From a virus, in IMG/VR virus record IMGVR_UViG_3300044704_000051, positions 1 through 41,241 of that record: a DNA stretch of 41,241 nucleotides; one strand, written 5' to 3'. This document shows, in pieces, positions 1 through 15,163 of the stretch. The position numbers and the translations under genes are program-made. Position 1 is the stretch's first letter. Every line of letters begins with the position of its first letter. The notes under the pieces are model-generated. The model did no database searches. It was not told the DNA's origin and was given only the letters and a program-made list of their open reading frames with translations.

Positions 1-1140
1 ATGCACAGCATTTCGCACCAACCCTCATCAAAGGCGTGCCAAATCGTGCCAGTTCTTTCACTCACAGACATAGCCATTCAGACGCTTAAACCCGGTCTCT
101 ACATGGACCGCAAAACGCCAGCATTCGGCATGCGCGTCGGCAAGAGTCGCAAGACATGGATAGTTCTCAGGGAGCCGAACCGTACCAAGGTCCGGCTCGG
201 GCACTACCCGGACTTGCCGCTCATTGAGGCTCGCCGCCGTGCGCACATCGCGCTCGGAACGCCGTTTGTCGCGAAGCCCGACAGCATTTCATTCGAACAG
301 GCCAAGCTCAATTTTCTCGAAGAACACTATCGCGGCAAGAAGCCCCGGACGAAGCACGAAGCAACGCGGTTGCTTAACCGCCTCGACTTCAAAGGAACAC
401 TCGCAGATATCGACGACCCGGCGATCGAGCGGGAGTTGAAAAAACTTGCCCACGTTCCGAGTGAGCAGCTTCACGCTTTCCGGGTTCTCCGCACGTTCCT
501 GCGATGGTGTTTGAAGCCCCCACACCGGTACATCAAACACAGTCCACTCGAAGGCTACCCGGCCCCAGGCAAGGACAAGAAGGGTAGCCGCATCCTCACC
601 GACGCAGAACTCCGGAAAGTGTGGAACGCATGCGAGGGCTTTTTTGGCGACATGATCCGGCTGCTGATTCTATGGGGATGTAGGAACGGCGAAGTCAGTC
701 GATCGCAACCGCAGTGGAACGACGGCAAGTTGTTCACGATCCCCGGCGAGTACACGAAGAACGGTCGCGCGCACGCGATACCGATTCTGCCTATGGCACG
801 CGTCATCCTCGATCGCCGCAAATCGAACGAACTCTACTACTTCCCCGGCCACGTCACCGATACGCACTTCAAAGACGGCTCATGGGGGAAGCTGAAAAAG
901 GAGCTCGACAAGCGTTCAGGAGTGACCGGCTGGCAGGTACGCGACCTACGCCGCACATTCCGCTCTACACTGGCCCGTTTGGGCGTACCCCGAGAGACGG
1001 CCGAGATCATGCTCAATCACGTCACGGGGGCAGGGAAGGGCGAATTAGACGAGATATACGACCGTTACGAGTATGCGGCAGAAAAGCGCACCGCCCTGCA
1101 AAAGTTGGAAGCCCACATGAAAAAAGTGCTCGGCGGTTAG
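1..1140 (+). CDS. int: Tyrosine recombinase, P4-type phage integrase
   Basis: Site-specific recombinase that would insert and excise the element. Residues about 20-60 look like the DUF4102 arm-binding domain of P4-type integrases, followed by a core-binding region and the catalytic domain. Visible active-site residues are R228 (in GCRNGEV), K253 (TKNG), R317 in RDLRRT, H340 (LNHVTG) and Y353 (IYDRYEY). The usual first histidine of HxxR is arginine here (R314), which I believe occurs in some family members. It is followed by an AlpA-like gene, the normal int-xis arrangement. The ATG is the first base of the window, so a longer N-terminus upstream cannot be excluded. Family call is firm; target site unknown. 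Confidence 0.9.
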   Translation: MHSISHQPSSKACQIVPVLSLTDIAIQTLKPGLYMDRKTPAFGMRVGKSRKTWIVLREPNRTKVRLGHYPDLPLIEARRRAHIALGTPFVAKPDSISFEQAKLNFLEEHYRGKKPRTKHEATRLLNRLDFKGTLADIDDPAIERELKKLAHVPSEQLHAFRVLRTFLRWCLKPPHRYIKHSPLEGYPAPGKDKKGSRILTDAELRKVWNACEGFFGDMIRLLILWGCRNGEVSRSQPQWNDGKLFTIPGEYTKNGRAHAIPILPMARVILDRRKSNELYYFPGHVTDTHFKDGSWGKLKKELDKRSGVTGWQVRDLRRTFRSTLARLGVPRETAEIMLNHVTGAGKGELDEIYDRYEYAAEKRTALQKLEAHMKKVLGG

Positions 1141-1215
1141 CTATGCAACAACGTCCGGGCTTGCGATCTGCCACGGTTCGCCTAGTCTAGCCATGCAGCT
1201 ATGTGGCTGTGGTTT

Positions 1216-1229
1216 GCATTGCGCAATGC
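1216..1229. promoter_or_regulatory. 14-bp perfect palindrome, likely operator
   Basis: GCATTGC is followed directly by its exact reverse complement GCAATGC, 20 bases before the start of the AlpA-like gene. A perfect palindrome there fits a dimeric regulator site controlling that gene, possibly autoregulation. No binding protein is shown. Confidence 0.45.
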
Positions 1230-1248
1230 TCTTTTGGAGTGTTGCAAG

Positions 1249-1527
1249 ATGTCAAAACCTCTGGTCGTAGATTGGGAAAGCCTAAAGGCGCTTGGTTGGC
1301 CGTACAGCAGAACTCAGACGTGGAGGCTGATGAAACCGACTATCACCGTTTCGCGCAAGGCAGGAAGCCGTCGGTTGGTCACGGAGATCCCGAACCCCGA
1401 CCCCTTCCCGGTTTGTCGCAAGGCGAATAGTCATTTCAACTCGCCGAATCTCTGGGTCATGTCGGATGTGCTCACCTACTTCGAGGCTCACGGTCTAAAA
1501 GTTACTGACGATTGGAACGCCCGATAG
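1249..1527 (+). CDS. AlpA/excisionase-like winged-helix regulator
   Basis: 92-aa DNA-binding protein. The N-terminal part (DWESLKALGWPYSRTQTWRLM) reads as the helix-turn-helix of AlpA/MerR-type excisionases, and the C-terminal part (NSPNLWVMSDVLTYFEAHGL) as the wing and second helix. In this position such proteins act as excisionase or as activator of int. I chose the ATG at 1249 because GGAG lies about nine bases upstream; an in-frame ATG at 1201 would add 16 unlikely residues across the palindrome. A strong terminator follows. Family confidence is good; whether it is excisionase or transcription factor cannot be told. Confidence 0.75.
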   Translation: MSKPLVVDWESLKALGWPYSRTQTWRLMKPTITVSRKAGSRRLVTEIPNPDPFPVCRKANSHFNSPNLWVMSDVLTYFEAHGLKVTDDWNAR

Positions 1528-1532
1528 GGCGG

Positions 1533-1566
1533 CGGCCGGGCTCCACCCCCGGCCGTTTTCGTTTTG
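1533..1566 (+). terminator. Rho-independent terminator after the AlpA-like gene
   Basis: Perfect 8-bp stem CGGCCGGG / CCCGGCCG with a 7-base loop, followed by GTTTTCGTTTT. It separates the int-AlpA unit from the TPR gene. Confidence 0.85.
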
Positions 1567-1574
1567 GGGGAACG

Positions 1575-2264
1575 ATGAAAGCAGCCGAACACTTGCAGAT
1601 CGCCGAAAACTATTTACGGGAAGCGCAGAAGTGTCCGTCCGACCCGTACTCCGCGATGATGCATATCCATCAACTCACTTCGCTCGCCGGAGATCACATC
1701 GACAAGGCCGTCGCGCTAGACCCGACCGCAACCATAGAAGTCCAGGGCCGCACAGTCGGTGCTGACTTCCTGATATCCGACTCGCTTCGCATGCAGGGGA
1801 TGATTGAAACGAAGCACGGCCCGAAGAAGTCCGACGTTCGGCGCGGCATCGGAGCAATCGAAAAAGCATTGAAGTACCGACCAAACGACCCAGACCTTCA
1901 CATCTCACTCGCGCTCGGTCGCATGCGTCTCAACGACAGGAGCGGAGCGCAGCCCCATCTCGATAAAGCAATTGAACTCGACCCGACAAATATGTACGCG
2001 CATGAACTCAAAGACGGCGCGAAGGGTGTGATGGATGCCGAACGACACGGCGGCTTGCAATTTCTTATTGATGTAGCCTTGGACTTCAAGTTGTGGGCAA
2101 TGGTTATCCCGGCGGGTTGGTGGATTTACTGCGGTTACAGGTATGTTCAAGCGATAGCAAATAACGAAGTCAGTGAGGACGCCGGGTTTTACCTCGTTTG
2201 GTTCTTCGGCATGGCAGCGGTCGTTGCGGCTTTCACTTGGGTAAAAGAAAAGCTCGCAAGTTAA
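1575..2264 (+). CDS. TPR-repeat protein with C-terminal membrane segments
   Basis: 229-aa protein. The first ~160 residues are helical and contain tetratricopeptide-like repeats (for example EKALKYRPNDPDLHISLALGRM and the next repeat ending in ELDPTNMYAHEL), a protein-protein docking fold. Two hydrophobic stretches near residues 175-195 and 200-222 suggest an inner-membrane anchor. GGGGGA precedes the ATG at suitable spacing. The stop TAA abuts the ATG of the VirD4-like ATPase with no gap, implying translational coupling and possibly a shared membrane-associated role. No specific family recognised. Confidence 0.7.
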   Translation: MKAAEHLQIAENYLREAQKCPSDPYSAMMHIHQLTSLAGDHIDKAVALDPTATIEVQGRTVGADFLISDSLRMQGMIETKHGPKKSDVRRGIGAIEKALKYRPNDPDLHISLALGRMRLNDRSGAQPHLDKAIELDPTNMYAHELKDGAKGVMDAERHGGLQFLIDVALDFKLWAMVIPAGWWIYCGYRYVQAIANNEVSEDAGFYLVWFFGMAAVVAAFTWVKEKLAS

Positions 2265-4244
2265 ATGCGCATACCGAGCGAACGATATTCGGGACCTGAG
2301 CCTTACGACATCGAGGCCAACTACGCGCGTGTGTATGCCATCTGGCAGGCGAACCCGTACCGCGACGCAGCTTTTTGCAACAAGCATTGCGATGAAGTGC
2401 TCATCAGCGCTCTCAAAGGACGAGGTACGCCGTCACTCCAGTTCGTTCAGGCGGTCGGCAACTTAATGTACGGCCTGTACGAATACGACGGGCTGTACGA
2501 GGTGAAAGAGCCGTACAAACTCGAACACGATCTCATCAAAAAAGAGAAGATGTACGAGGAACACGCCGCACGGCTGGCGGACGCGAACCGCACCATGCGA
2601 GACTTTTTCGTTAAGTTCTTCCGGCATGTGAAAGCCGAGCTTGCGTATGGAGAACCTGAGAACCGCACGGTCCCCCTCATTGAACTCTGCGACAGTCCCC
2701 GCGCCACCGTTCAGGAGTTTTTCTCGACGTTCGTCTACTCCGATCTGTTTCCTCGCACACGTGAACAGATGCTTTTGAACCTCGCAGACGTATCAGGTCT
2801 CAATCCCGACAAGCTACCGGAGAACCCCAAGTACAAATGGCCGAGGGATTCCGACTTGGGCTCGGTGGAACTGAACAACCAATATTTTTGGGGAACGCCG
2901 TTTGAGAAAATTCTGCTTTTGCAGGTGCCACTCAAAGTCCCTGAGCGTATTCGATTCGAACACGCGCACGTCGTTGCAGGTTCAGGAGCAGGCAAGACGA
3001 CGCTTCTCACGCAGCAGCTACTAGAAGACGTTTTTGACGAGAAACGGCCCACGCTCATTGTCATTGACGGGAAGGGTACATGGGCGCCAGTGCTGCAACG
3101 GTTCGCGTGTTTTGCGCCGGATCGCGCGCAGTCAGAGCGCCTTATTGTCATCAACCCCCAAGACAGACACCCCGCCGCGCTCAACATGTTCGCGGCCGAT
3201 GAGAGAATCATCGACGGAATCTCAGAAAACCTTGCTTATATCTTCGGCTCGCGGGACTTCGACCTCTCTGCAAAACAGCGCACGGCGTTCACGTATGCCG
3301 CTCAGCTTGTTTTTTCCATGCCGGGCTCGACAATTGAAACGCTGCTCGCGCTGATGCAGGACCCCGCGGAAAAGAGTGGCGGAGTTCCCGCATCGAGTCC
3401 GTTCCGGGAAGCTATAGATCGACAACCCCACATTAATCGTCGCTTTTTGAATGAACTGTTCTACCACCCGACAGAATTTCTTGAAACGAAACGACAGATA
3501 CAGAACCGCATTTACGACCTCCTGAGTTGTCCGGCATTCGCTGCGATGTTTACGCAGCAAGAGAACCGTTTGGATATGCGCAGCGTAATGCAGCGCGGGA
3601 AGATCCTCATTGTGGACGCTTCACCGGGAGCGGTAGGAGACAAGGCAGCTTCGACATTCGGGCGCTACATCATATCCCTCGCGCTCACTACCGCCCGGTC
3701 GCGCATAGACATCCCCCGCGATCAGTGGCGGCCGACCTACCTCTACATCGACGAGGCTCAGCTATTCGTGGACGAGGAGCGCACGCAGCCGCTTCTACAA
3801 CAGGCCCGGGAGTTCAACTTGGGTGTTATCCTCTCCCATCAAAAACTCGACGATTTGTCGGCTACACTCCGGGCAACATTCGCCGGCAACACCTCATCGA
3901 AGTATTGCGGTCACCCATCGCACGACGATGCCCGGAACATGGCGAAGGAAATGCGTACCGACGCGGATTTTATTATGTCGCAGCAGCATCGAGACGGGCA
4001 TGCACACTTCGCCGCCTATATTCGTGGCATCACGCCTCGCGCACTCTCGTATAGTTTTCCGCTCGGCACGATGGTGACAACTGAAAAAATGTCGGACGCG
4101 CAGTACCGTGATTTGATGGCGCGTAACAGGGCGCTCATGTCGCCGCCTCGAAAAGACCCCGAGCCACCGCCGCCGGAAATGGCCCCGCCGAGGCCAAAAC
4201 CACCGACCGATATGCCGTCAGGAAAGGCGAAGGGTCTGTGGTAG
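2265..4244 (+). CDS. VirD4/TraG-like DNA-translocase-family ATPase
   Basis: 659-aa P-loop ATPase of the VirD4/TraG/FtsK-HerA superfamily, the family of type IV coupling proteins. Walker A is at residues 238-246 (AGSGAGKTT), Walker B at 493-497 (LYIDE) followed by AQLF, and a sensor-like LSHQ lies further on. The ~230-residue N-terminal region is helical with no clear membrane helices, so it may be a soluble or TraC-like relative. The C-terminus is a proline-rich tail. It starts on the base after the TPR gene's stop. In plasmids such proteins feed relaxase-bound DNA to a secretion channel, but no channel genes are visible here, so its role in a phage is open. Confidence 0.8.
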   Translation: MRIPSERYSGPEPYDIEANYARVYAIWQANPYRDAAFCNKHCDEVLISALKGRGTPSLQFVQAVGNLMYGLYEYDGLYEVKEPYKLEHDLIKKEKMYEEHAARLADANRTMRDFFVKFFRHVKAELAYGEPENRTVPLIELCDSPRATVQEFFSTFVYSDLFPRTREQMLLNLADVSGLNPDKLPENPKYKWPRDSDLGSVELNNQYFWGTPFEKILLLQVPLKVPERIRFEHAHVVAGSGAGKTTLLTQQLLEDVFDEKRPTLIVIDGKGTWAPVLQRFACFAPDRAQSERLIVINPQDRHPAALNMFAADERIIDGISENLAYIFGSRDFDLSAKQRTAFTYAAQLVFSMPGSTIETLLALMQDPAEKSGGVPASSPFREAIDRQPHINRRFLNELFYHPTEFLETKRQIQNRIYDLLSCPAFAAMFTQQENRLDMRSVMQRGKILIVDASPGAVGDKAASTFGRYIISLALTTARSRIDIPRDQWRPTYLYIDEAQLFVDEERTQPLLQQAREFNLGVILSHQKLDDLSATLRATFAGNTSSKYCGHPSHDDARNMAKEMRTDADFIMSQQHRDGHAHFAAYIRGITPRALSYSFPLGTMVTTEKMSDAQYRDLMARNRALMSPPRKDPEPPPPEMAPPRPKPPTDMPSGKAKGLW

Positions 4245-4245
4245 G

Positions 4246-4254
4246 TGATAAAAT
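4246..4254 (+). promoter_or_regulatory. Extended -10 promoter TGATAAAAT
   Basis: TG-A-TAAAAT matches the extended -10 pattern repeated across the window. It lies just after the ATPase stop and about 76 bases before the replication-relaxation-like gene. No -35 is apparent. Confidence 0.55.
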
Positions 4255-4330
4255 AAACGTGAGGCCATTGCAGGGCTCTCCATAGCAAACCGCGCTGCGA
4301 TTGCTTTCGGAAGCCGCATGGGGATTCCTC

Positions 4331-5278
4331 ATGTGTATGGATACACTCACACGAAACTCCCGCTGGACACGCGAACCGGCGACCGGAAAAACTGGGAAGC
4401 CGCGCAAGGCGGTCGTAACCGAACGCGATATCCGCGTCATTTTGCCGTTGCTCGCACGGTATCGCTACCTCCCCGCCGACTTCATTCACGCATTCACGGG
4501 AGGCGACTACCAATCGCTCATCAAACACCTGGGCTTGCTTTCACGAAAACCGAACCTCTACCTCAACCGCCCGGAGCAGCAGCGCGAGCACGCCGAGGCG
4601 CTATACCGCAAAGGCATCTTTGAGCTCGACAAGCGCGGTATTGAAACCCTGCGGGAGCTCGGCTTCACCGTTCCCGACAGGAAATATCACTACAATTTCG
4701 CGCATGAATTAATGACGTGCCAGATCGCCGCTTCGATCGAACTCGGCGTCAACGCAAGCCAACATCAACTCATTCGGTGGGATGCGTTCAAGGCAGACGT
4801 GCCGAAGGCTACACTCGAATCGAAAAACCCGTTCGCGATGGAGTTTAAGGACGGCGAGTTTGTCACGCCCGACCACGAGCCGTTTATCATCGACTACGAG
4901 AACGGCCGGACCCGTTTCTTTCCGGGCTTTGAAGCCGACTGCGGCACCGAGCCGATAGATGCAAGCGACATGGGCCGCTCATCCATCCGCGCAAAGTTTC
5001 GCGCGTACCTCAATGTGCTGCACGACAAGATCTACAAAAAACATTACGGCATAAAAAACTGCACTATCCCTTTCATCACGAACACCGAAGCACGGATGCA
5101 TTCGATGATGGCGCTATTGCAGAAGATGGAGCCGGGCGACCTGGCCGAGCACATCATCTTTTCTCACGTCCCGTCGTTCTATGCGTTCAGGGAAACATTC
5201 AAAGCGGGCGGGCAGATGTTCACCGCGCCGTGGAAACGTGCCGGCCTACCAGACTTCCACATGAACCAAGGAGACTGA
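4331..5278 (+). CDS. Replication-relaxation family-like protein
   Basis: 315-aa protein. Residues about 30-100 form a winged-helix-like domain (TERDIRVILPLLARYRYLP). It is followed by HELMTCQIAASIELG and a core with FEADCGTEPI and then AKFRAYLNVL, which resembles the E-x-D-x-G-T-E ... K-x-x-x-Y pattern of replication-relaxation (Replic_Relax) plasmid proteins. These accompany TraG-like ATPases on plasmids and are thought to act in replication or mobilisation; a PD-(D/E)xK-like nuclease core is possible. I chose ATG 4331 because GGGGA lies just upstream; TTG 4301 and ATG 4337 are in frame. Neighbouring VirD4-like ATPase supports a plasmid-type module. Confidence 0.65.
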   Translation: MCMDTLTRNSRWTREPATGKTGKPRKAVVTERDIRVILPLLARYRYLPADFIHAFTGGDYQSLIKHLGLLSRKPNLYLNRPEQQREHAEALYRKGIFELDKRGIETLRELGFTVPDRKYHYNFAHELMTCQIAASIELGVNASQHQLIRWDAFKADVPKATLESKNPFAMEFKDGEFVTPDHEPFIIDYENGRTRFFPGFEADCGTEPIDASDMGRSSIRAKFRAYLNVLHDKIYKKHYGIKNCTIPFITNTEARMHSMMALLQKMEPGDLAEHIIFSHVPSFYAFRETFKAGGQMFTAPWKRAGLPDFHMNQGD

Positions 5279-5279
5279 C

Positions 5280-5441
5280 GTGCTCGATAGCAAACTCGCG
5301 AAGTTGAAAGACCTCATCATCGAAAGGGAACGGATCGACACCGAACTTGCCGTGCTACTCGGCGAAACACCGAAGGCGCGGCGAGGCCGACCCGCAAAAG
5401 AAAAAGGCCCGGCCGAACCCGGGCTGCGCGTTGTTGAATAG
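5280..5441 (+). CDS. Small basic hypothetical protein
   Basis: 53-aa protein with a GTG start preceded by AAGGAG at ideal spacing, one base after the replication-relaxation-like gene. The first half is a charged helix (KLAKLKDLIIERERIDTELAVLL) likely to form a coiled coil. The second half is basic and proline-rich with an AT-hook-like RRGRPAK. Possibly a DNA-binding accessory of the upstream protein. No family recognised. Confidence 0.6.
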   Translation: MLDSKLAKLKDLIIERERIDTELAVLLGETPKARRGRPAKEKGPAEPGLRVVE

Positions 5442-5467
5442 AAAAATGCCGCGCATTCGCGCGCGGC
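5441..5467 (-). terminator. Terminator of the antisense gene
   Basis: GCCGCGC (5448-5454) pairs with GCGCGGC (5461-5467). Read on the minus strand the stem is followed by ATTTTTC, so it terminates the minus-strand gene 5485-5730. On the plus strand there is no T run. Confidence 0.7.
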
Positions 5468-5484
5468 AGTCACAGGGAGGCTCG

Positions 5485-5730
5485 TTAATCCACGGGGTTT
5501 TCGCTGTCGTCGAACGGCGGGACCAGCACCATCGTGCCATCCCACGCCTGAATGTTGATCGGCAGCGTGTTCAGTTTGATGCTGAAGCCGGTCTCGGTCT
5601 TGAACGCGACGCCAACGGGCGACCAATCCTGACGACCTGGGCCGGTCTTGGCGCGAACATAGAAGTCGACTTCGCGCTTTTCACGGGGTTCACGCCGTTG
5701 GCGTGGGCGGGTATCGGTGTTGTCCAACAT
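5485..5730 (-). CDS. Small conserved hypothetical protein, antisense to the operon
   Basis: 81-aa protein beginning MLDNTDTRP. The start at 5730 is supported by AAGGAG seven bases upstream on the minus strand, so I reject the 130-aa version. The basic N-terminal tail (PRQRREPREKRE) leads into a compact beta-rich domain (VGVAFKTETGFSIKLNTLPI, then GTMVLVPPFDDSE). I recall similar short proteins with a 'LNxLPI...LVPP' signature beside alphaproteobacterial plasmid genes, function unknown. It has its own terminator and is divergent to the primase-like gene, so it is an independently expressed unit. Confidence 0.75.
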   Translation of the reverse strand: MLDNTDTRPRQRREPREKREVDFYVRAKTGPGRQDWSPVGVAFKTETGFSIKLNTLPINIQAWDGTMVLVPPFDDSENPVD

Positions 5731-5855
5731 GGCAATACTCCTTCCCGCAGGGTTGCTGTTTGTTCGATGCGGGCGGCTGGGCGCTTTGCAATACGCAGAA
5801 CAGCGTGCACCTGTTCTATATCGTCCAGCAGTCCACATCGAACGTCTACCCAGAA

Positions 5856-5864
5856 TGGTATCAT
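5856..5864 (+). promoter_or_regulatory. Extended -10 promoter TGGTATCAT
   Basis: TG-G-TATCAT lies 26 bases before the primase-like ATG, between it and the divergent antisense gene. GGAG follows before the ATG, so this transcript has a normal ribosome site. Confidence 0.5.
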
Positions 5865-5890
5865 GAGGAGAGTCCACAACGGAGGCTCAC

Positions 5891-6514
5891 ATGAACATCT
5901 TCGAGGAGGTGCGTGCCGGCGTCACGATCGCGCAAGCCATCGACTACCTGGGCCTACAGCCCACGGAAACGAAAGGCGACCAGTTGCGCTTCCCGTGCCC
6001 CAAGTGTGGCGGCACCGACAAGCGCACGCTCAGCGTCAACCTCGTCAAAGGGTTTCGCTGTTTCTCCGGCGACAAGAAGGGCGACGACGCAACGGCGTTG
6101 GTCGCGCACGTTCGCGGCATCCGAAATGGAGAAGCGGCACAACTATTGAAGGAACGATACCTTCAAGGAGCCACCAAGCCCGAGGCGAAAGCCAAAGGTG
6201 AGGGGCGGGAGGAGGCGGCCCCAGACGTTCTTCTCCCGCTAACTGATCTCGACATCGAGCATCCGGTAATTGAAATGCTCGGGCTGACAGCGGCCATCAT
6301 GGAAGCAATCGGCGGCGGGTACTGCAAACGTGGCGTGATGACCGGGCGTATCTGCATCCCGCTTCGCATGCCTGACGGCCAGCTTATCGGCTACCAAGGG
6401 ATCGCAACCAAAGCCGAACAGCAACCGTTGCTTCTGTTCCCGAAATCGCTCGAAGCAAGGATCAAAACCAAGCCCGAACCGGACGAGCTACGCAAACTGT
6501 TCCGCGTCGTGTAG
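5891..6514 (+). CDS. Primase-type (CHC2-like) zinc-finger protein without TOPRIM catalysis
   Basis: 207-aa protein resembling the N-terminus of DnaG-type primases. After an HTH-like segment (VTIAQAIDYLGL), residues about 35-65 hold CPKCGGTDKRTLSV ... FRCFSGDKKGD, a variant CHC2 zinc ribbon that recognises template DNA. The second half (RICIPLRMPDGQLIGYQG) looks like the start of the RNA-polymerase/TOPRIM core, but the acidic TOPRIM motifs are absent. It is therefore either a split primase or a DNA-binding derivative. GGAGG precedes the ATG. A terminator follows. Its position after the replication-relaxation-like gene supports a role in replication. Confidence 0.75.
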   Translation: MNIFEEVRAGVTIAQAIDYLGLQPTETKGDQLRFPCPKCGGTDKRTLSVNLVKGFRCFSGDKKGDDATALVAHVRGIRNGEAAQLLKERYLQGATKPEAKAKGEGREEAAPDVLLPLTDLDIEHPVIEMLGLTAAIMEAIGGGYCKRGVMTGRICIPLRMPDGQLIGYQGIATKAEQQPLLLFPKSLEARIKTKPEPDELRKLFRVV

Positions 6515-6542
6515 TCGCACCAAAGCAACCATAGCGTTGCGT

Positions 6543-6577
6543 AGCCGTCCGCGAAGAATCGGACGGCTTTCGCTTTT
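6543..6577 (+). terminator. Terminator after the primase-like gene
   Basis: Perfect 9-bp stem AGCCGTCCG / CGGACGGCT with an 8-base loop, then TTTCGCTTTTCT. Confidence 0.9.
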
Positions 6578-6601
6578 CTATAAGGCGCGCACAGTACGCG
6601 C

Positions 6602-6790
6602 ATGCCGCGTGTAGAACTTTTACCAGCAGTCAAAGAGCTCGACGCCCGCATTTGTGGCCGGCTCATTTATCAAACGGTCTGCCGGGCAGAACACGAGCAC
6701 GAGGGTTCGTTCGTATTCGCTGGCTGGCTGGTTTCATACACGTGTGAATCTGACGTCCTGACAATCGGTATGCAGGAGTATTTTTTATGA
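6602..6790 (+). CDS. Small hypothetical protein
   Basis: 62-aa protein (MPRVELLPAVKELDARICG...). No family recognised. No good ribosome site; TATAAG lies about 20 bases upstream. Its TGA overlaps the ATG of the next gene (ATGA), supporting that both are real and coupled. Confidence 0.5.
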   Translation: MPRVELLPAVKELDARICGRLIYQTVCRAEHEHEGSFVFAGWLVSYTCESDVLTIGMQEYFL

Positions 6791-6954
6791 GCGAAGGCCG
6801 CATGTACACCGAATACAAATGCAGCAAGGGACATCGCTGGCAGAAGTATTGGCGTAAGACGCCTTGGTTTGGTGACTATGCAACACACTGTCCGAAGTGC
6901 GGAGAGCGCCGCTGGTATTGCTACAGTTTCGACGAACGCCTGTACGAGAAATAG
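6787..6954 (+). CDS. Small zinc-ribbon protein
   Basis: 55-aa protein starting inside the stop of the previous gene (ATGA). Cysteines are arranged as a zinc ribbon: a first C in YKCSKGHRW, then CPKCGERRWYC. Likely binds one zinc and may contact DNA, RNA or protein. Typical of small early phage proteins; no specific function. Confidence 0.6.
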   Translation: MSEGRMYTEYKCSKGHRWQKYWRKTPWFGDYATHCPKCGERRWYCYSFDERLYEK

Positions 6955-6966
6955 CCGTCCTCGGGA

Positions 6967-6975
6967 TGGTACGAT
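6967..6975 (+). promoter_or_regulatory. Extended -10-like element TGGTACGAT
   Basis: Lies between the zinc-ribbon gene and the terminator at 7038. If active it would make a short untranslated RNA of roughly 85 bases. Could also be chance. Confidence 0.3.
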
Positions 6976-7037
6976 TCACTACGGCACGTCGCCCACTAAA
7001 TATCAATCCGCTCCTGGTTCTCTGGCGCATCCAAACT

Positions 7038-7065
7038 GCCTCGCGAAAGCGGGGCTTTTCTTTTT
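7038..7065 (+). terminator. Terminator immediately before a promoter
   Basis: GCCTCGC / GCGGGGC stem (one G-T pair) with a GAAA tetraloop, then TTTTCTTTTT. The next promoter begins three bases later. Confidence 0.9.
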
Positions 7066-7067
7066 CG

Positions 7068-7076
7068 TGATAAAAT
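7068..7076 (+). promoter_or_regulatory. Extended -10 promoter TGATAAAAT, leaderless
   Basis: Only six bases separate TAAAAT from the ATG at 7083, so the transcript should start at or next to the start codon. Confidence 0.65.
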
Positions 7077-7082
7077 AAACAC

Positions 7083-7364
7083 ATGAAATGTCCACGTTGT
7101 GGTGGCGACTTTTTCAAGAACTACGGCAGACGGGGCAGATACTGTTCGAGATATTGCACAGCGCCTCGCGTGCCGAAGGCAAAATCAAAACCGAGATCAC
7201 CATCCGCACCCGTTGCTCCACTAAAACCCGTCGCCAAGAAGAAGAACCCGAACTGCATTCGATGCGGTCTCTATTTGCGATCGGACCCGATACCTAGCAA
7301 AGACCCCGTGCACTGTGGGTTTTGCTATCGGGCGATGAGAGACAGCCGCGTGCAATCGACTTAA
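7083..7364 (+). CDS. Small cysteine-rich zinc-binding protein
   Basis: 93-aa protein with two putative zinc sites joined by a basic proline/alanine linker: MKCPRCGGDFF ... YCSRYC at the N-terminus and CIRCGLYL ... CGFCYRAM at the C-terminus. The N-terminal part looks like the small 'CPxC...CSxxC' proteins common in phages. It has its own promoter, no ribosome site, and lies directly after a terminator. Function unknown. Confidence 0.65.
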   Translation: MKCPRCGGDFFKNYGRRGRYCSRYCTAPRVPKAKSKPRSPSAPVAPLKPVAKKKNPNCIRCGLYLRSDPIPSKDPVHCGFCYRAMRDSRVQST

Positions 7365-7367
7365 GCG

Positions 7368-7376
7368 TGATAAAAT
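7368..7376 (+). promoter_or_regulatory. Extended -10 promoter TGATAAAAT
   Basis: Same element as at 7068, located just after the stop of the zinc protein and about 105 bases before the gene at 7482. Confidence 0.55.
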
Positions 7377-7481
7377 ACACAGAGGTTTCTTCGGTTTCGG
7401 AAATTGGTGGCGCATTTAAACACGTCATGCGCACGCGACGCTTACAATGTGCCACCGCCTCCGCAACTGAGGAGAATAGCG

Positions 7482-7733
7482 ATGCCTTGGAAAAAGTGCA
7501 CCGAAGCTCGTTACATGGAAATGCTCGAAATTGTACCGCCAGCGGTATACCTGCATCACGGCTTTCTGGTCGGAGAACCGGCAAGCCACCGGACCTGCAC
7601 GAAGTCAGGCGGGTTCAGGGCTGACTTCGCCGCGTTCGTTCGTATGGGAGACGAGCACTACGAAGGGCCGAACCTGACGATCCCGGAGTTCCGCGCGTTG
7701 GATCTTGAGCAGATCAGGCGGGAGGCCGTGTGA
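7482..7733 (+). CDS. Hypothetical protein, possible small phage accessory
   Basis: 83-aa protein MPWKKCTEARYMEMLEIVPPAV... The start is set by GAGGAG seven bases upstream; an in-frame GTG at 7404 is less likely. The TGA/ATG of this and the next gene overlap. Acidic C-terminus. No family recognised. Confidence 0.6.
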   Translation: MPWKKCTEARYMEMLEIVPPAVYLHHGFLVGEPASHRTCTKSGGFRADFAAFVRMGDEHYEGPNLTIPEFRALDLEQIRREAV

Positions 7734-7930
7734 TGCTGGACAAAACCCGCAACGTCATTTCGCTTCCAGCGTACAACGTCGAGAAGCGAGGAGAGTACTG
7801 GTACTACTGGCGAGCACCGTTCTTCAGCCAGGAGCATCCGAAAGGGCCATACGGCTCAGCCATGAGCGTATGCATGATGATCGCGCGCGAGCTGGTTCAA
7901 GACATAACGGCGCATCGTCGCAAGAAGTAA
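7733..7930 (+). CDS. Small hypothetical protein
   Basis: 65-aa protein. The ATG at 7733 has GGAGG nine bases upstream inside the previous gene and is coupled to it. Aromatic-rich middle (GEYWYYWRAPFF) and a helical basic C-terminus (MIARELVQDITAHRRKK). No family recognised. From its end to 8061 I see nothing firm, only a 24-codon GTG frame (7960-8034) without support. Confidence 0.55.
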   Translation: MLDKTRNVISLPAYNVEKRGEYWYYWRAPFFSQEHPKGPYGSAMSVCMMIARELVQDITAHRRKK

Positions 7931-8060
7931 TCCGTCCCCACCTATCCGTCTCAACTTCCGTGCGAGTCCATCCCAAGAGCAGCGACGAGGGCTACCGTCG
8001 CGTGATGGGATTCAAGAAGCGCGGCGTAACCTGATGACTTGCAATGTGCAGAAGTCAGAC

Positions 8061-8086
8061 AGCCGGGCGCAAATGCCCGGCTCTTT
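8061..8086 (+). terminator. Terminator immediately before a promoter
   Basis: Perfect 8-bp stem AGCCGGGC / GCCCGGCT with a 6-base loop, then CTTTC. The next promoter starts three bases on. Confidence 0.85.
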
Positions 8087-8088
8087 CA

Positions 8089-8097
8089 TGATAAAAT
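8089..8097 (+). promoter_or_regulatory. Extended -10 promoter TGATAAAAT, leaderless
   Basis: Six bases separate TAAAAT from the GTG start at 8104. Confidence 0.65.
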
Positions 8098-8103
8098 TCG
8101 GGA

Positions 8104-8460
8104 GTGAAACTCTGGACGAGTACGAAGGCGGACCAACTATTTTCCCGCTGGATACGCACCCGAGACAAGACGTGCTTTTTCTGCCCGAACCCCGCAACCC
8201 AAAACTCTCATTTCTGGGGCCGAGGCAATTCAGCCACCCGGTACGACCCCGAAAACTGTGACGGAATTTGCGGAGGCTGCCACATGCGCCACGAGGGAAA
8301 CAAACAAGGGCTGTATCGCGAGAAGAAGATCGCTCAGCTTGGGCAGGAGCGTTATGACGCGCTGTTCAGGCGGGCGCATTCCATCGTAAAACGGTCGGAC
8401 GCGATCGCTACGCTCATGAGCTGGTATAATACAAACGTAAGCACCCACCATGGAGACTAA
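8104..8460 (+). CDS. NinG-like recombination/HNH-type protein
   Basis: 118-aa protein similar in layout to the core of lambda NinG (Rap), which acts on Holliday junctions and recombination intermediates. Visible elements are RWIRTRDKTCFFC, an HNH-like SHFWGRGNSATRYDPENCDGIC region, GGCHMRHEGN, and a helix with IAQLGQERYDALFRRA, which mirrors NinG's GQERVxxL. Paired cysteines (CFFC, CGGC) suggest zinc. GTG start, leaderless. An ordinary HNH endonuclease is the alternative. Its C-terminus carries the promoter and start of the next gene. Confidence 0.75.
   Translation: MKLWTSTKADQLFSRWIRTRDKTCFFCPNPATQNSHFWGRGNSATRYDPENCDGICGGCHMRHEGNKQGLYREKKIAQLGQERYDALFRRAHSIVKRSDAIATLMSWYNTNVSTHHGD
8422..8430 (+). 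promoter_or_regulatory. Extended -10 promoter TGGTATAAT
   Basis: Consensus-perfect extended -10, inside the end of the NinG-like gene and 19 bases before the next ATG. Confidence 0.6.
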
Positions 8461-8674
8461 CGTCACTGTCATCCGTCCCTCGACCCGCGACGCAACCCGG
8501 GATCACTTGCTCCGCACACACAAGAAGGAGGCAACACTAGAGCAGATCATGGACTGCTTAGGGCCGAAGCTGGATGTGCTCGATCTGCGTCCTTGTAGGA
8601 CACCAGACCCGCGCAAGCTCTTAGAACCGTCAACTGTTGATCTCCGAAACGAAATCAGGAAGGGCTTTGCGTGA
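8450..8674 (+). CDS. Small hypothetical protein
   Basis: 74-aa protein METNVTVIRPSTRDATRDH..., charged and probably helical. It overlaps the end of the NinG-like gene by 11 bases and has its own promoter with no ribosome site. No family recognised. Confidence 0.5.
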   Translation: METNVTVIRPSTRDATRDHLLRTHKKEATLEQIMDCLGPKLDVLDLRPCRTPDPRKLLEPSTVDLRNEIRKGFA

Positions 8675-8680
8675 TACAAT
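8672..8680 (+). promoter_or_regulatory. Extended -10 promoter TGATACAAT
   Basis: Overlaps the previous stop codon. Nine bases separate TACAAT from the ATG at 8690, giving a nearly leaderless transcript. Confidence 0.55.
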
Positions 8681-8689
8681 GAACTGACC

Positions 8690-8854
8690 ATGAAGGACAA
8701 GCTGTACATCATCAAGAAGTACGTGAAAGCGAAGTCCGCAGCGCAAGCAATACGAAAAGAGAAAACGGTGCAGGTCGATGACTGTTGGATAGACGACGAG
8801 TGGAGGAAGGGAGAGAAAGACAACCTAGCGGCAGCCATCGGGTTCGGCTCATGA
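8690..8854 (+). CDS. Small basic/acidic hypothetical protein
   Basis: 54-aa protein MKDKLYIIKKYVKAKSAAQAIRKEKT ending in an acidic tryptophan-containing tail. Too short to recognise. Supported by the upstream promoter and by an ATGA overlap with the next gene. Similar small phage proteins carry a 'KTVQVDDCWIDDEW' style end, function unknown. Confidence 0.55.
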   Translation: MKDKLYIIKKYVKAKSAAQAIRKEKTVQVDDCWIDDEWRKGEKDNLAAAIGFGS

Positions 8855-9015
8855 ACACACTCTGCCCGTACGGTAGCAAGATGCAGTATGAGAGCCGAGC
8901 AGCAGCTAAGCGTGTACGGAATTTCCGAGGCAGATTGAAGAAGGGATTGAGTGCATATCTCTGCCCGAACTGCCACTGGTGGCATCTCACCGGTCACAAC
9001 CACAAAATACGATAG
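8851..9015 (+). CDS. Small zinc-binding phage protein
   Basis: 54-aa protein with an N-terminal CPYGSK, a basic helix (AAAKRVRNFRGRLKK) and a C-terminal CPNCHWWHLTGH, which resembles the short 'CPxCxxWHLT' zinc proteins common in phages. Starts inside the previous stop (ATGA). Confidence 0.65.
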   Translation: MNTLCPYGSKMQYESRAAAKRVRNFRGRLKKGLSAYLCPNCHWWHLTGHNHKIR

Positions 9016-9018
9016 GAT

Positions 9019-9432
9019 ATGAAAACCGTCACCGCGTTTCCGCCGAACTACAGTCTCATCAAGTCCGTTCTCAACCCGCCGGCGCACGCAGCATTTACCT
9101 ACGGCGATACGATCTACAATCCGTGCGGCCGAGAACTCCCACCCGACATCACGTATCACGAAAGCGTCCACTCGAAACAACAGGGTGACGATCCGGAATC
9201 ATGGTGGAACCGCTACTTATCGGATTCATCATACCGGCTTGCACAAGAGGTAGAAGCATATGGAGAGCAGTACGCGTTCGCTTGTCGGCACGTCAGCAAC
9301 AACAAACTCAGGACATGGGCGAAGGAGAGCATGGCCCTCGCGCTATCGAGCGAGGCATACGGCGGTGTGGTATCATTCAGTGAAGCGGAGAGTTTGATAC
9401 GACGCTACGCAAAGAACAAAGCCACGGTTTGA
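9019..9432 (+). CDS. Putative HExxH zinc metallopeptidase
   Basis: 137-aa protein. Residues 47-51 are HESVH, a canonical HExxH zinc site, followed by SKQQ. About 25 residues later AQEVEAYGEQYAFA supplies a likely third glutamate ligand (E77 or E79). This is the gluzincin arrangement in a minimal domain. There is no signal peptide, so it would act in the cytoplasm or in the virion. AGGAT precedes the ATG. It sits just before the terminase genes, so a role in head maturation is conceivable but unproven. Confidence 0.65.
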   Translation: MKTVTAFPPNYSLIKSVLNPPAHAAFTYGDTIYNPCGRELPPDITYHESVHSKQQGDDPESWWNRYLSDSSYRLAQEVEAYGEQYAFACRHVSNNKLRTWAKESMALALSSEAYGGVVSFSEAESLIRRYAKNKATV

Positions 9433-9444
9433 TTATTTTTCAAT

Positions 9445-9735
9445 ATGGCACGAGGCGGCAAAAGACCGGGAGCAGGACGACCAGAGGGCAAGGCAAACCG
9501 CCCGAGCATTTTAGAATACTGGAACGGCACCGCGTATCCGAAGCCGGTGATGGACTACTTCGCACACATCACGAAGCGGTACAAAAAAAGTGACAAACTC
9601 GCTACGTGGGTAGGCGATCAACTGTGCGGAAAAGCGATGCAGCCGATAGGTGGCGACATGGACCTCAATCTCCGCGTCGTGTTCGATTCTTCATTCGATG
9701 CTACTCCACGAAAAACAAAAAAGGATAGCAAGTAG
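9445..9735 (+). CDS. terS: Putative terminase small subunit
   Basis: 96-aa protein beginning MARGGKRPGAGRPEGKA, the basic glycine-rich start typical of many phage terminase small subunits. They bind the packaging site and guide the large subunit. It overlaps the large-subunit gene by 38 bases. The rest is short for the family and lacks an obvious full HTH, so a truncated or divergent form is possible. Confidence 0.6.
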   Translation: MARGGKRPGAGRPEGKANRPSILEYWNGTAYPKPVMDYFAHITKRYKKSDKLATWVGDQLCGKAMQPIGGDMDLNLRVVFDSSFDATPRKTKKDSK

Positions 9736-11104
9736 CCCCGCCCGTTTCAAAGTCGTCAGAGCCGGACGACGTTTCGGAAAGACCGTCGTAAAAACCGAAA
9801 CGATGCTGTTTAAGGCTGTAGCGAAAACCATCAAACTCGCACGCACGCTTACCGGCCGCACCGTCATTTTCATCGCCCCGACACAGAAGCAAGCCCGCAC
9901 GATCGTGTGGGAGGCGTTTAAGGCCCGTCTGGGGAAAATCGGCGAGTTCAACGAGTCGCGTCTTGAAATCAGGTTGCCGATAGAGGGAGGCGGACATTCA
10001 ACCATATTCGTCGGCGGTTGGGAGAACCGAGAAAACTACCGGGGCATGCCGAACGTCATTCACTTGGAGTTCGACGAGCTCGACACGATGCCTGAGTTCT
10101 TTGTGGCGTGGCAGGAGATATTTCGCCCGATGCTCATTGATACCGGCGGCAGCGCTGGTTTCGGCGGCACACCGAAAAAGGAGAACCCGAACCTGCGCCG
10201 GCTCGAGAAGCAATACGCGGACGATCCCGAATGGGCGCTATTCCACTTCACCACATACGACAACCCGCATGTGCCGCGCGAGGAAATAGAAAAGGCTCGG
10301 CTCGAAATGGACGCGCAAACGTTTCGACAGGAGATCATGGCCGAGCACGTGGATAACGAAGGGGCGCTGTTCCACTATGATGCGCTCGTTGACGTGTTCT
10401 CTAACACCATAGACAAGAGCGGCGGCAAATATCTGCTTGTTGATATCGCGGACGACGGCTCGGATAAAACCATCTTTTCGTTCTGGGACGGACTCGAAGA
10501 ATACCGGCGTGAAGCGTTCGAGCACCTGAACACCGAGGAGACCATAAACAAGATACGGGAGTTTTGCGCAAGCGAGCGCATCCCGTTCTCACACGTCGCT
10601 GTCGATGCAATAGGTGTCGGCGCCGGAGTGGCGAACTCATCCATGCTCACCGGTATCGTCGGATTCAAGTCGTCCTACACGCCTATAAAAACGGATCACA
10701 GCATCGTCCTGCTCCCGAACGTCCACTATCGCAAGGACGCACCGCTTACGTCCGAGTATAAGAATCTGCGCTCGCAGTGCGTATTCATTCTCTCCCATAT
10801 GGTGAACGAACATCAGATCGCTTCACGCGTCACAGGCCGGTTCAAAGAGATGACGATTGAGGAGTTGAGCCACTACCAAGACGCATCGAAGGGCGACGGC
10901 AAGCGCATGGCAACGCCGAAGGAGGACGTGAAAGAAGCGATCGGCCGCAGCCCTGACCATTCCGATACCTGGATCATGCGCATGTATTTCGTACTGAAAG
11001 CGAAGATGCTGCCGGACGGGGAGCGCATGACTCAGGTTGTGCAGCGGCAGGGGATGCAGTTTGACAAAGCGTTTCGCAACCGCTCGCAGAGTAGCGCCGA
11101 ATAG
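9698..11104 (+). CDS. terL: Terminase large subunit
   Basis: 468-aa DNA-packaging motor. The Walker A variant AGRRFGKT is near residue 25, a Walker B-like HLEFDELD follows around residue 120, then a coupling motif-like GFGGTPKKEN. The nuclease half shows YLLVDIADDGSDKT, VAVDAIGVGAG and a late PDHSDTW, which supply the RNase H-like acidic residues. I chose ATG 9698 (MLLHEKQKRIASSPARFKVV); ATG 9650 adds an unlikely N-terminus fully overlapping terS. Length fits the family. Confidence 0.92.
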   Translation: MLLHEKQKRIASSPARFKVVRAGRRFGKTVVKTETMLFKAVAKTIKLARTLTGRTVIFIAPTQKQARTIVWEAFKARLGKIGEFNESRLEIRLPIEGGGHSTIFVGGWENRENYRGMPNVIHLEFDELDTMPEFFVAWQEIFRPMLIDTGGSAGFGGTPKKENPNLRRLEKQYADDPEWALFHFTTYDNPHVPREEIEKARLEMDAQTFRQEIMAEHVDNEGALFHYDALVDVFSNTIDKSGGKYLLVDIADDGSDKTIFSFWDGLEEYRREAFEHLNTEETINKIREFCASERIPFSHVAVDAIGVGAGVANSSMLTGIVGFKSSYTPIKTDHSIVLLPNVHYRKDAPLTSEYKNLRSQCVFILSHMVNEHQIASRVTGRFKEMTIEELSHYQDASKGDGKRMATPKEDVKEAIGRSPDHSDTWIMRMYFVLKAKMLPDGERMTQVVQRQGMQFDKAFRNRSQSSAE

Positions 11105-11106
11105 TA

Positions 11107-11115
11107 TGCTACACT
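11107..11115 (+). promoter_or_regulatory. Extended -10 promoter TGCTACACT
   Basis: Lies in the 19-base gap after terL, eight bases before the portal ATG. Confidence 0.5.
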
Positions 11116-11123
11116 TTTGAGAT

Positions 11124-12992
11124 ATGCCAGCGAGTATTGGCGAACTGATACGTAAAGCAGAGAACGAGTTCAATCGTGGCTCTACGCAGATTTCGAAGCA
11201 TGTCACGTTCTCCCTCACCGACACGCTCGAAAAAATCGACGCGTATCTTAACTCCAAACATATAAGCGGCGAGACCGACTCCCTCGGCCGCAAAAAACCG
11301 TTTTTCAACATCGTAACCGCCGCGGCAAACATCTGGTATCGGGCAACAGACATCGACCGTAAAAACATCCGGATACGCGCAGTCAAACAAAAAGACTGGA
11401 TCGACTCGTTCCTCGCAACCGTTCACCTGCAAGCGTGGATGCGTAAGGTAAACTTTGGCGCGTTCCTCAATGACTGGGGGCGCGTTCTTTCGCGATATGG
11501 CTCTGCTATTGTCAAGTTCGTGGAAAACAGTCAGGGCCTTACGGTCCAGGTGGTGCCGTTCAACACCGTCATATTCGACGCCGTGGACTTCGAAGGCAAT
11601 CCGGTCACTGAGATCATCCAACTCACCGAGGCACAGCTTTACGAGCGCATCCAAACGCACGGATACGACGCGACGGCCGTCAAAGCGCTCTGTGACGCTG
11701 CCGAAGTTGCACGTGAAACGACCGGGAAGCAAAAGAAGGATAACAAGAGCGATTACTTCAAGCTGTACGAGTTGCACGGACTCCTTTCGAAGAAATACCT
11801 GTCCAACATGGAGGCGGATACCATTTCATTCCAACAACAGATGCACGTCATGTCGTTCGTCGGAAAGAAAAAGGGCCGTACAATCGACTACCAAGACTTC
11901 ACGCTGTTCAAAGGGCCGGAAGCGCAGAGCCCCTACATGCTCACCCACCTCATCAAAGAGGACGGGCGCTCGCTTGCGATCGGGGCTGTAGAGACACTGT
12001 TTCAGTCACAGTGGCAGATCAATCACTCGAAGAAAGCCGAGCGTGACATGCTCGATATCATTTCGAAGATAGTATTTCAGACAGCCGACGCCAATTTTGT
12101 CGGCCGCAACGTCCTATCGAACATGGAGAGCGGCGATATCTTTGTGCATGGCGTCAACATGCCGCTCACGCTCGTAAATAACTCGAAATTTGATGTAACG
12201 TCCGAACAGAACTATGCCGTCTCGTGGAAGTCGCTCGGCAACGAAGCTGCCGGCATCTCAGAAGCCATGCTCGGCATTGCTCCCAAGTCCGGCGAGGCAT
12301 GGGCGCAGACACAGGCCGTGTTGCAGGAGTCCTATTCTCTGTTCGAACTCATGACCGAGAACAAGGGTCTCGCGGTCGAAGACTGGCTCCGTCTGCGTAT
12401 ACTCCCATTCATCAGACGGACGGAAATGGACACGTCGAAGGAAGTCTCGGCGACCCTCGCACAGTACGATATCGACCGCATCGACCGCATGTATATCAAG
12501 CGCGAGGCCATCGTGCGGACCAACAAAGCGTTCCTCGACAACGCCGAAGCCATTGTCAACGGCGCGGACATCCAGCCCATGACACAGGATGACCAGGCGC
12601 AGATGATCCAGCAGCACGAGCAGGGCATGCAGGACGCGCTCAACCAAATGGGAGGACAGCGTTTCTTCAAGCCCTCGGCGCTCTCTGACAAAACATGGAA
12701 AGAGCAGTTCAAGGACTTAGAGTGGGAAGTCGAAGTTGAGATCACTGGAGAGGAACGCGATGTGAAATCAGCACTCACGACCCTCAACACCGCCCTCACG
12801 ATGGTAATGCAGCCGGGCTTCGATCAGAATCCACGCGCAAAAGCCGTCGTCGGCCGTATCTTTGAGCTCACCGGTGCAATGTCACCCATTGAATACAACG
12901 CAATTCCGGCAGCGCCGCTTCAACCTATGGCCCCAACACCTGCTGCAGCAGGTCCGACGGCAACATTACCAGCACCAGCAATTAGTGCATGA
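11124..12992 (+). CDS. Portal protein
   Basis: 622-aa protein. Its place right after terL, its length and its alpha/beta content with a long helical C-terminal third fit a dodecameric portal that forms the DNA channel of the head. Segments such as YRATDIDRKNIRIRAV, the SQWQINHSKKAERDML helix and AMLGIAPKSGEAWAQTQAVL match the general look of portal cores. The C-terminus is Q/M-rich and then Pro/Ala-rich. The stop overlaps the next ATG. No ribosome site; promoter eight bases upstream. Confidence 0.85.
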   Translation: MPASIGELIRKAENEFNRGSTQISKHVTFSLTDTLEKIDAYLNSKHISGETDSLGRKKPFFNIVTAAANIWYRATDIDRKNIRIRAVKQKDWIDSFLATVHLQAWMRKVNFGAFLNDWGRVLSRYGSAIVKFVENSQGLTVQVVPFNTVIFDAVDFEGNPVTEIIQLTEAQLYERIQTHGYDATAVKALCDAAEVARETTGKQKKDNKSDYFKLYELHGLLSKKYLSNMEADTISFQQQMHVMSFVGKKKGRTIDYQDFTLFKGPEAQSPYMLTHLIKEDGRSLAIGAVETLFQSQWQINHSKKAERDMLDIISKIVFQTADANFVGRNVLSNMESGDIFVHGVNMPLTLVNNSKFDVTSEQNYAVSWKSLGNEAAGISEAMLGIAPKSGEAWAQTQAVLQESYSLFELMTENKGLAVEDWLRLRILPFIRRTEMDTSKEVSATLAQYDIDRIDRMYIKREAIVRTNKAFLDNAEAIVNGADIQPMTQDDQAQMIQQHEQGMQDALNQMGGQRFFKPSALSDKTWKEQFKDLEWEVEVEITGEERDVKSALTTLNTALTMVMQPGFDQNPRAKAVVGRIFELTGAMSPIEYNAIPAAPLQPMAPTPAAAGPTATLPAPAISA

Positions 12993-13537: not shown

Positions 13538-13539
13538 TG

Positions 13540-13548
13540 TGGTACTAT
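13540..13548 (+). promoter_or_regulatory. Extended -10 promoter TGGTACTAT
   Basis: Begins just after the previous stop and lies 45 bases before the scaffold ATG. The 39-base leader lacks a clear ribosome site. Confidence 0.5.
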
Positions 13549-13593
13549 TATTTTAATTGGTGAGGCGTAACACCGAAAAACAGCCTGACTCAA

Positions 13594-14175: not shown

Positions 14176-14196
14176 GACGACGGATTATATTTAGCC

Positions 14197-14222
14197 GGTT
14201 CCTACGACGGGTAGAGTGAACC
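14197..14222 (+). promoter_or_regulatory. Hairpin in the capsid-gene leader
   Basis: GGTTC-CTAC / GTAG-AGT-GAACC forms a 9-bp stem with a 3-base bulge and a 5-base loop. It ends ten bases before the TTG start of the capsid gene, where no Shine-Dalgarno is visible, so it may affect initiation or mRNA stability. Confidence 0.5.
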
Positions 14223-14232
14223 CCAAATTACT

Positions 14233-15084: not shown

Positions 15085-15086
15085 TT

Positions 15087-15108: not shown

Positions 15109-15163
15109 GGGCGCCGTCCCGTCGGCGGCACCCGCTGGCTCACTGAGGAACAACAACATCATC

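Follow-up and report, generated by a model that had tools for sequence, protein, structure and literature searches.

The whole of IMG/VR virus record IMGVR_UViG_3300044704_000051, a stretch of 41,241 bases (hereafter the window), was analysed, and it opens with a compact set of genes in which an integrase is followed by a VirD4/TrwB-like ATPase, a MOBC/Replic_Relax-like protein (RR) and a primase-type protein, on the same element as the structural genes of a tailed phage. In order, and all on the plus strand, these are a tyrosine integrase with Arm-DNA-bind_3 and phage integrase domains (1-1140; phrog_1, 5e-39; PF13356, 8.6e-7), an AlpA-like small DNA-binding protein (1246-1527), a TPR protein with a C-terminal hydrophobic segment (1572-2264; TPR_2, 2.8e-6; hydropathy peak at residues 206-224) whose open reading frame (ORF) stops one base ahead of the ATPase start, the ATPase itself (2265-4244, 659 residues), RR (4331-5278, 315 residues) and a CHC2-type primase N-terminal protein (5891-6514, 207 residues). 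Downstream on the same strand lie the terminase large subunit TerL (9650-11104; phrog_2, 9.7e-42; 45 relatives in IMG/VR), a portal/connector protein (11124-12992; phrog_332, 1.4e-5; 49-60% in related phages) and a major head protein (14233-15084), for which the profile match is weak (phrog_267, 0.005) and the synteny strong, its relatives being 57-86% identical and in the same position in related phages. An earlier note on this DNA had described the ATPase, RR and primase-type genes as a block next to an integrase and linked to terminase, portal and capsid genes; the three ORFs are present at the positions it gave, and the profile matches and synteny bear out the linkage. As a description of the block, however, it was incomplete, since the AlpA-like gene and the TPR/membrane gene also belong, and a related gene is found 27 kb off, at 31455-32225. 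The AlpA-like ORF has no profile match of its own in Pfam and PHROG searches; genes 41-63% identical to it stand before the ATPase in related phages L137, L138, L146, L147 and L148 (L-numbers are labels of the records and loci compared), and it is a probable excisionase or regulator.

The ATPase carries the Walker A motif AGSGAGKTT at residues 238-246, exactly as claimed beforehand, and a Walker B-like YIDEAQ at residues 494-499. Its assignment to the TraG/VirD4 group is upheld by PF10412 (TrwB_AAD_bind; E 4.9e-6, 26.1 bits, over the 20.5 cut-off), by the predicted structure (mean predicted local distance difference test score, pLDDT, 85) and by its place in a tree of 12 phage sequences. With Foldseek the model is closest to TrwB (1.1e-10) and HerA (HerA-NurA, 1.4e-10), and with VIA to DndH (Z 27.6), VirB4, TrwB (Z 26.9) and the Legionella coupling complex (T4CC), with Z of 26-28, and to HerA with Z of 22; searches of solved structures by sequence gave no match with either the ATPase or the RR profile. 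Hydropathy reveals no hydrophobic (transmembrane) segment in this ATPase or in that of phage L136, although the separate ORF ending at 2264 does have one, and N-terminal hydrophobic segments like those of type IV coupling proteins (T4CPs) are present in the ATPases of L137, L138 and L103. Because it lacks the N-terminal transmembrane domain, we call the window protein VirD4-like and not a T4CP. The idea that a coupling-type ATPase serves here for something other than packaging is supported by its VirD4/TrwB class and by the presence of a separate TerL. The protein was also considered as a terminase on account of a weak match to phrog_2666 (‘terminase large subunit’, 9e-8), and this was rejected given that TerL and the TrwB/VirB4/HerA fold. 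VirD4-like phage ATPases sit in phrog_5156 (‘unknown’) and in phrog_2666, and through these families they may be misannotated in phage genomes.

RR is, on profile and modelling grounds, best described as a remote member of the Replic_Relax family (PF13814, the MOBC relaxases) with the predicted MOBC domain plan. The earlier assignment to this family holds in part: the window protein by itself falls below the Pfam cut-off (E 0.043), and its homologues pass clearly, both outside phages (L103, 1e-19 and 71.8 bits; L083, 36.5 bits) and within them (L136, 1.9e-11 and 44.8 bits; L150, 1.3e-13 and 51.9 bits). PF13814 was also the top match for all eight further phage RRs tested (E 1.3e-13 to 0.0046), and the homologues that exceed its cut-off directly follow a homologous ATPase gene. 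The sequence FEADCGTEPI, singled out earlier as a motif, proved in alignments of 30 and 36 sequences to be part of a conserved family signature, PD...E-x-D-x-G-T-E-P...R-K-S, in which P180-D181, E201-x-D203, E207 and K217 are the conserved RR residues. In the predicted structure (mean pLDDT 81), residues 25-113 form a winged helix of MarR type (VIA: HpaR, Z 9.4, root mean square deviation 2.4 over 74 aligned residues), and the C-terminal domain (about 120-315) is nearest to restriction endonucleases (VIA: PaqCI, Z 7.4; SdaI, 7.1; BstEII, 7.1; the nickase Nt.BspD6I, 6.8), matches that are moderate, with Z below 8 and a best Foldseek E of 0.04. Since these matches coincide with the conserved acidic residues and with a BFVD match of the model to a Bacillus phage JL protein (3e-8), the C-terminal part is likely a PD-(D/E)XK-like nuclease domain. 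The same plan, a winged helix with a PD-(D/E)XK-type domain, is reported in a review for the MOBC relaxase TraX of pAD1 (PMC12857230).

The third gene of the block had been proposed to encode a primase-type zinc protein, and phrog_47 (DNA primase, 2.1e-15) confirms this, as does the fit of PF01807 (CHC2) to phage orthologues (8e-5 and 3e-9). Apart from the genes of the first 6.5 kb, the only replication gene recognised in the window is an SSB-like gene (33510-34082). Neither DnaB_C nor DNA_pol_A was found in 12 phages, a set that includes L009 and L134 and was not searched for other helicase or polymerase families.

Viral relatives were found by scanning with a 43-sequence ATPase alignment and then with phage ATPases; IMG/VR scans with a single sequence or with three sequences had returned none, so that the broader alignments were needed. 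The order ATPase, RR, CHC2 gene recurs in 11 other viral records (L136, L137, L138 and L144-L151), all of them metagenomic or genome-derived, and this number is a lower bound because scans based on short patterns overlook distant relatives. A CHC2 orthologue comes after the RR gene in every one of the 11. An orthologue of the window integrase heads the module in seven (L136, L137, L138, L145, L146, L147, at 62% identity, and L151), the other four starting near the record end or showing none, and a TerL accompanies it in 10 (phrog_2 in eight, phrog_675 in two), L147 being the record in which terL was not detected. In L136 the TerL (61%) and portal (49%) are themselves similar to those of the window, and the TerL follows the shared module; portal and head genes were recognised in L137 too. 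Since the TerLs beside the shared block belong to at least two families, the left module is conserved even as the packaging module is exchanged. A very diverged VirD4-RR pair also precedes terL in two additional phages: L009, whose TerL is 63% identical to that of the window, and L134, which has a different TerL. Several records were left out of the count: L135 is an alphaproteobacterial island like L103 that is filed as viral and has a TerL-like match about 14 kb off; L152 and L153 offered no more than a distant ATPase; and Microcystis phage Mwe-JY31 has the pair, but a scan of four large proteins gave no structural-gene match, and so it was not counted as a tailed phage.

Moreover, in L136, L137, L138 and L149 the gene directly before the ATPase is an orthologue (34-44% identity) of window gene 31455-32225 (plus strand), which encodes a second VirD4-like subunit without a Walker A motif. 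In profile-profile comparison it matches the small VirD4-like ATPases that take the same place before the ATPase in L126, L129, L150 and L151 (probability 89.5, E 2e-6, 258 columns; RR and CHC2 control profiles below 1), and with this gene a portion of the module is found midway along the phage genome. A promoter-like, extended -10-like motif of 14 bases, GTGATAAAATAAAC, also links the block with the genes that follow: it occurs on the plus strand before RR (4245-4258), as an identical copy in the phage early region (7067-7080), at 7367-7380 and, with two mismatches, at 8671-8684, the last three before phage genes, giving four matches against 0.47 expected, a number reached in 0 of 100 shuffles. 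The codon usage of the integrase, ATPase, RR and CHC2 genes is that of the structural genes. Synteny in 11 viral records, the shared motif and matching codon usage together contradict the view, raised beforehand, that the first 6.5 kb are a separate element lying next to the phage; judged from sequence comparison, synteny is the decisive evidence that the phage owns the block, and the motif was the first hint.

The same pair also occurs outside phages. The earlier statement that such genes typify plasmids is overstated: PLSDB holds 22 plasmids with an ATPase relative and one with an RR relative, against 80 ATPase loci obtained by scanning bacterial genomes, mostly in alphaproteobacterial chromosomal islands. 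With the window protein as BLAST query, an RR gene can be picked up in more than 35 of these 80, as a rule immediately after the ATPase, and the RR cluster covers 46 loci, the window included. Recombinases of the serine or tyrosine type are present in the islands, frequently alongside a second VirD4-like ATPase; no virion genes were seen among the clusters examined, in a scan that was not exhaustive. One locus, L129 (Roseovarius tolerans, 1-14984), contains an integrase remnant, the small ATPase, the ATPase, RR and a CHC2 gene; type I restriction-modification genes come next, and no terminase was recognised within the 15 kb examined, so the module looks to be carried by a virion-less integrative element as well; by eye, a 237-residue gene of this locus (8173-8886) resembles 14449-15165 of phage L136. 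The ATPase tree places the window together with phages L144-L148 (support 99/98); three label changes are required across the 12 phage sequences, which, given the long branches, neither shows nor excludes a single origin.

Longer TraG-like ATPases of about 900 residues form another group of islands (L051-L074, L080, L099, L120, L124, L125 and others) and have no RR neighbour; a small conserved gene stands in front of them and often a second VirD4-like ATPase is present. Their C-terminal domain has a conserved VDV...ACEISVTT...E pattern like that of a PD-(D/E)XK nuclease, and it was considered as a fused RR, an idea rejected because profile comparison gave no homology (probability 0.3).

Two other phages deserve mention here. 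Mwe-JY31 (L002, 8646-11422; 22 kb) combines the ATPase-RR pair with a ParA-like gene and a replication initiation protein, and may be a plasmid-like element. In Bacillus phage G (JN638751.1), gp156 gives a VirD4-like match (9e-7; 92074-93003) and gp146 fits the RR fold (1.8e-6), so the pair may exist in this giant phage too.

We tentatively favour, as a quite possible reading, that the phage owns a relaxosome-type module built from the mobilisation parts of plasmids or integrative mobilizable elements (IMEs) and uses it to initiate its replication. The integrase would excise and circularise the prophage, after which RR, through its winged helix and nuclease domain, would bind a site on the phage genome and nick one strand, so that strand-displacement replication could start. 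The hexameric VirD4-like ATPase and its smaller degenerate partner would aid nicking, or drive the displaced strand, or both; the CHC2 protein and host enzymes, presumably including helicase and polymerase, would finish the copies; and TerL would package the product of what may be lytic replication. We favour this because the module includes a CHC2 gene in each of the 12 phages (the window and the 11 others) and because neither a DnaB-type helicase nor DNA polymerase A turned up in the set searched for them, so that nothing else recognised could start replication. The VirD4-like partner is compatible with such a role, since MobB of CloDF13, the VirD4-type partner of a MOBC relaxase, itself takes part in relaxation (PMC7431656). 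MOBC enzymes are counted among multifunctional rolling-circle initiators (PMC5714925), and Replic_Relax proteins were earlier noted in Bacillus phages, two of them with an FtsK/SpoIIIE protein (PMC9658697, PMC10454425).

Several points weigh against initiation. We know of no well-known replication initiator that needs a VirD4-class motor. The window RR itself stays under the PF13814 cut-off, and its nuclease residues vary in some phages (E-A-E-N-K-A-E in L137 and L138). No oriT-like inverted repeats or iteron clusters were found near the block. Finally, the virion-less islands keep the ATPase-RR pair nearly always without the CHC2 protein (one match in 80 loci), a pattern more in keeping with DNA transfer than with phage replication.

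The main rival is mobilisation, in which RR would nick the excised circle and the VirD4-like protein would hand the DNA to the type IV channel of a helper, in the manner of CloDF13 or a VirD4-MobC IME, the element spreading both by virion and by conjugation; we consider this doubtful, if a serious contender. A VirD4-type coupling protein with a PF13814/MobC relaxase and an integrase is the layout of a described IME class (PMC5357655), and virion-less islands, many with tyrosine or serine recombinases, have the same pair, including L129 with its CHC2 gene and type I restriction-modification cargo. The T4CP-like hydrophobic segments of the ATPases of L137, L138 and L103 point the same way, but the window and L136 ATPases have none, and CloDF13 is not mobilised unless MobB has its transmembrane domain (PMC7431656), so that here only the adjoining TPR/membrane ORF could supply one. 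VirB4 (PF03135) is absent from the window and five related phages, so a helper would have to provide the channel, and the missing oriT near the block counts against mobilisation as well. Replication initiation and mobilisation are not mutually exclusive.

A role in defence or superinfection exclusion, with a HerA-like ATPase and a PD-(D/E)XK nuclease as in HerA-DUF4297, SIR2-HerA and MADS, seems improbable to us. PADLOC matches the ATPase to mad8 (9e-16) and HerA (7e-4), in keeping with its structural nearness to HerA-NurA and DndH; yet RR belongs to a relaxase-related Pfam family and has a DNA-binding winged helix, no PADLOC model fits it, and in 12 phages the module, together with a primase-type gene, keeps a set place ahead of terL and not a variable cargo position. 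Still less probable is that the pair maintains or segregates the phage as an episome, that is, as a phage-plasmid, a role put forward for the Replic_Relax and FtsK-like genes of Bacillus phages (PMC9658697, PMC10454425) that was also one of the earlier suggestions for the window. The tyrosine integrase and the passage through tRNA-Gly (CCC) (40376-40449, plus strand) into a GC-rich flank speak for integration, and no partition genes are among the window proteins scanned. That the first 6.5 kb are a separate IME beside a prophage is scarcely credible even though chromosomal islands without phage genes contain similar integrase-TraG-RR blocks, for the block recurs in L136, there with the CHC2 gene and the similar TerL, and in ten further viral records, the promoter-like motif and the codon usage run across the supposed border, a module gene lies at 31.5 kb, and no other tyrosine integrase is recognised in the rest of the window. 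Assignment of the whole element to the IMEs was likewise rejected, given the terminase, portal and head genes that it carries and the conservation of the module beside such genes in other phages.

To return to replication initiation by a phage-owned module, its parts have counterparts in several known systems. The mobilizable plasmid CloDF13 likewise pairs the gene of a VirD4-class ATPase (MobB) with that of a MOBC-type nuclease (MobC), with no VirB4 mating-pore gene found, a likeness drawn from family descriptions in papers without direct sequence comparison; the window module differs in being carried by a tailed phage that is integrated and has terminase and capsid genes, in having an ATPase without a transmembrane domain, and in its extra degenerate VirD4-like subunit and CHC2 protein. 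Streptococcal IMEs of class 8 (VirD4 with Rel_PF13814/MobC) are likewise integrative and compact, with integrase, VirD4 protein and PF13814 relaxase, but have a serine instead of a tyrosine integrase, no virion genes and Gram-positive hosts (PMC5357655). Bacillus phages Novomoskovsk and Bolokhovo also have a PF13814-type protein and an ATPase of DNA-translocase type, with an FtsK-type, not TrwB-type, motor (PMC9658697), and like phage G they belong to other phage groups; in those parts of the published accounts that we consulted, the pair in the Bacillus phages is not linked to an integrase or CHC2 gene. An RR-fold protein and a translocase-type ATPase also occur in phage G (gp146 and gp156), where the genes were found separately, by fold and by tblastn. 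The alphaproteobacterial islands (L076-L129; Sulfitobacter plasmid NZ_CP081110) share the homologous ATPase followed by RR, a second VirD4-like ATPase nearby and, in some, a tyrosine integrase related to that of the window; they differ in having no CHC2 gene (except L129), many serine recombinases and no virion genes in the stretches examined. HerA-DUF4297, SIR2-HerA and the mad8 component of MADS also join an ATPase of the HerA/VirD4 superfamily to a nuclease, whereas the window nuclease has no profile match among defence systems and the pair has a fixed place in a phage integration and replication module.

The record looks like an integrated provirus, because the tyrosine integrase at one end is matched at the other by tRNA-Gly and a GC-rich flank. 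Base composition shifts just past the tRNA (GC 0.65-0.73; GC at third codon positions, GC3, 0.90 against about 0.66 in the phage), making tRNA-Gly the probable right boundary. No repeats of at least 16 bases that join the window ends, as attachment sites would, were found, which is uninformative since the left flank is absent from the record. Directly past the tRNA begins a high-GC TIR-STAND gene (40567-41241, plus strand; TIR_2, 5.5e-17; GC3 0.90), cut by the record end and probably part of the host chromosome or of a neighbouring (defence) island. Just before the tRNA, genes for a cytosine methyltransferase, a type II restriction enzyme and Vsr stand in series (37906-40360) as restriction-modification cargo at the provirus end. 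Elsewhere in the phage are a gene for a NinG-like nuclease (8104-8460), among small phage genes, and, on the minus strand, a repressor-like gene (36596-37060). A perfect inverted repeat of 22 nt (arms 30605-30626 and 30786-30807, 159 nt between) lies 6.5 kb from the gene of a DNA-invertase-type serine recombinase (37237-37794), and the two make a possible invertible switch. A 56-nt sequence present twice (35256-35311 and 35822-35877; 82% identity), each time ahead of a small ORF, is a duplicated promoter or leader.

Replic_Relax and translocase genes in Bacillus phages, and VirD4-MOBC pairs in plasmids and IMEs, were already known. We found no report in the open literature of a conserved integrase-VirD4-MOBC-primase module in tailed phages, nor of a ‘phage-encoded relaxase’, and as far as that literature shows this conserved order is new. 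From its recurrence across genomes, the module looks like a standard part of these phages. A bolder proposal, which at present we would rate as somewhat unlikely, is that temperate tailed phages use a complete IME-type relaxosome (nickase, active and degenerate VirD4-like subunits, primase-type protein, integrase and AlpA) as a standard module for both replication and conjugal mobilisation, exchanged with virion-less elements, so that the same backbone would travel either as a virus or as a mobilizable island. The analysis also offers a likely role for PF13814 and VirD4-like genes carried in phage annotation as unknown or under a possibly wrong label (phrog_5156, phrog_2666). Phages and conjugative elements are usually treated as separate routes for DNA, and the module provides a testable case in which the two machineries are joined. 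If it starts replication, these phages would have an initiator that departs from the conventional types of phages, with a relaxase related in kind to restriction enzymes; if it serves mobilisation, the phage would have two routes of transfer.

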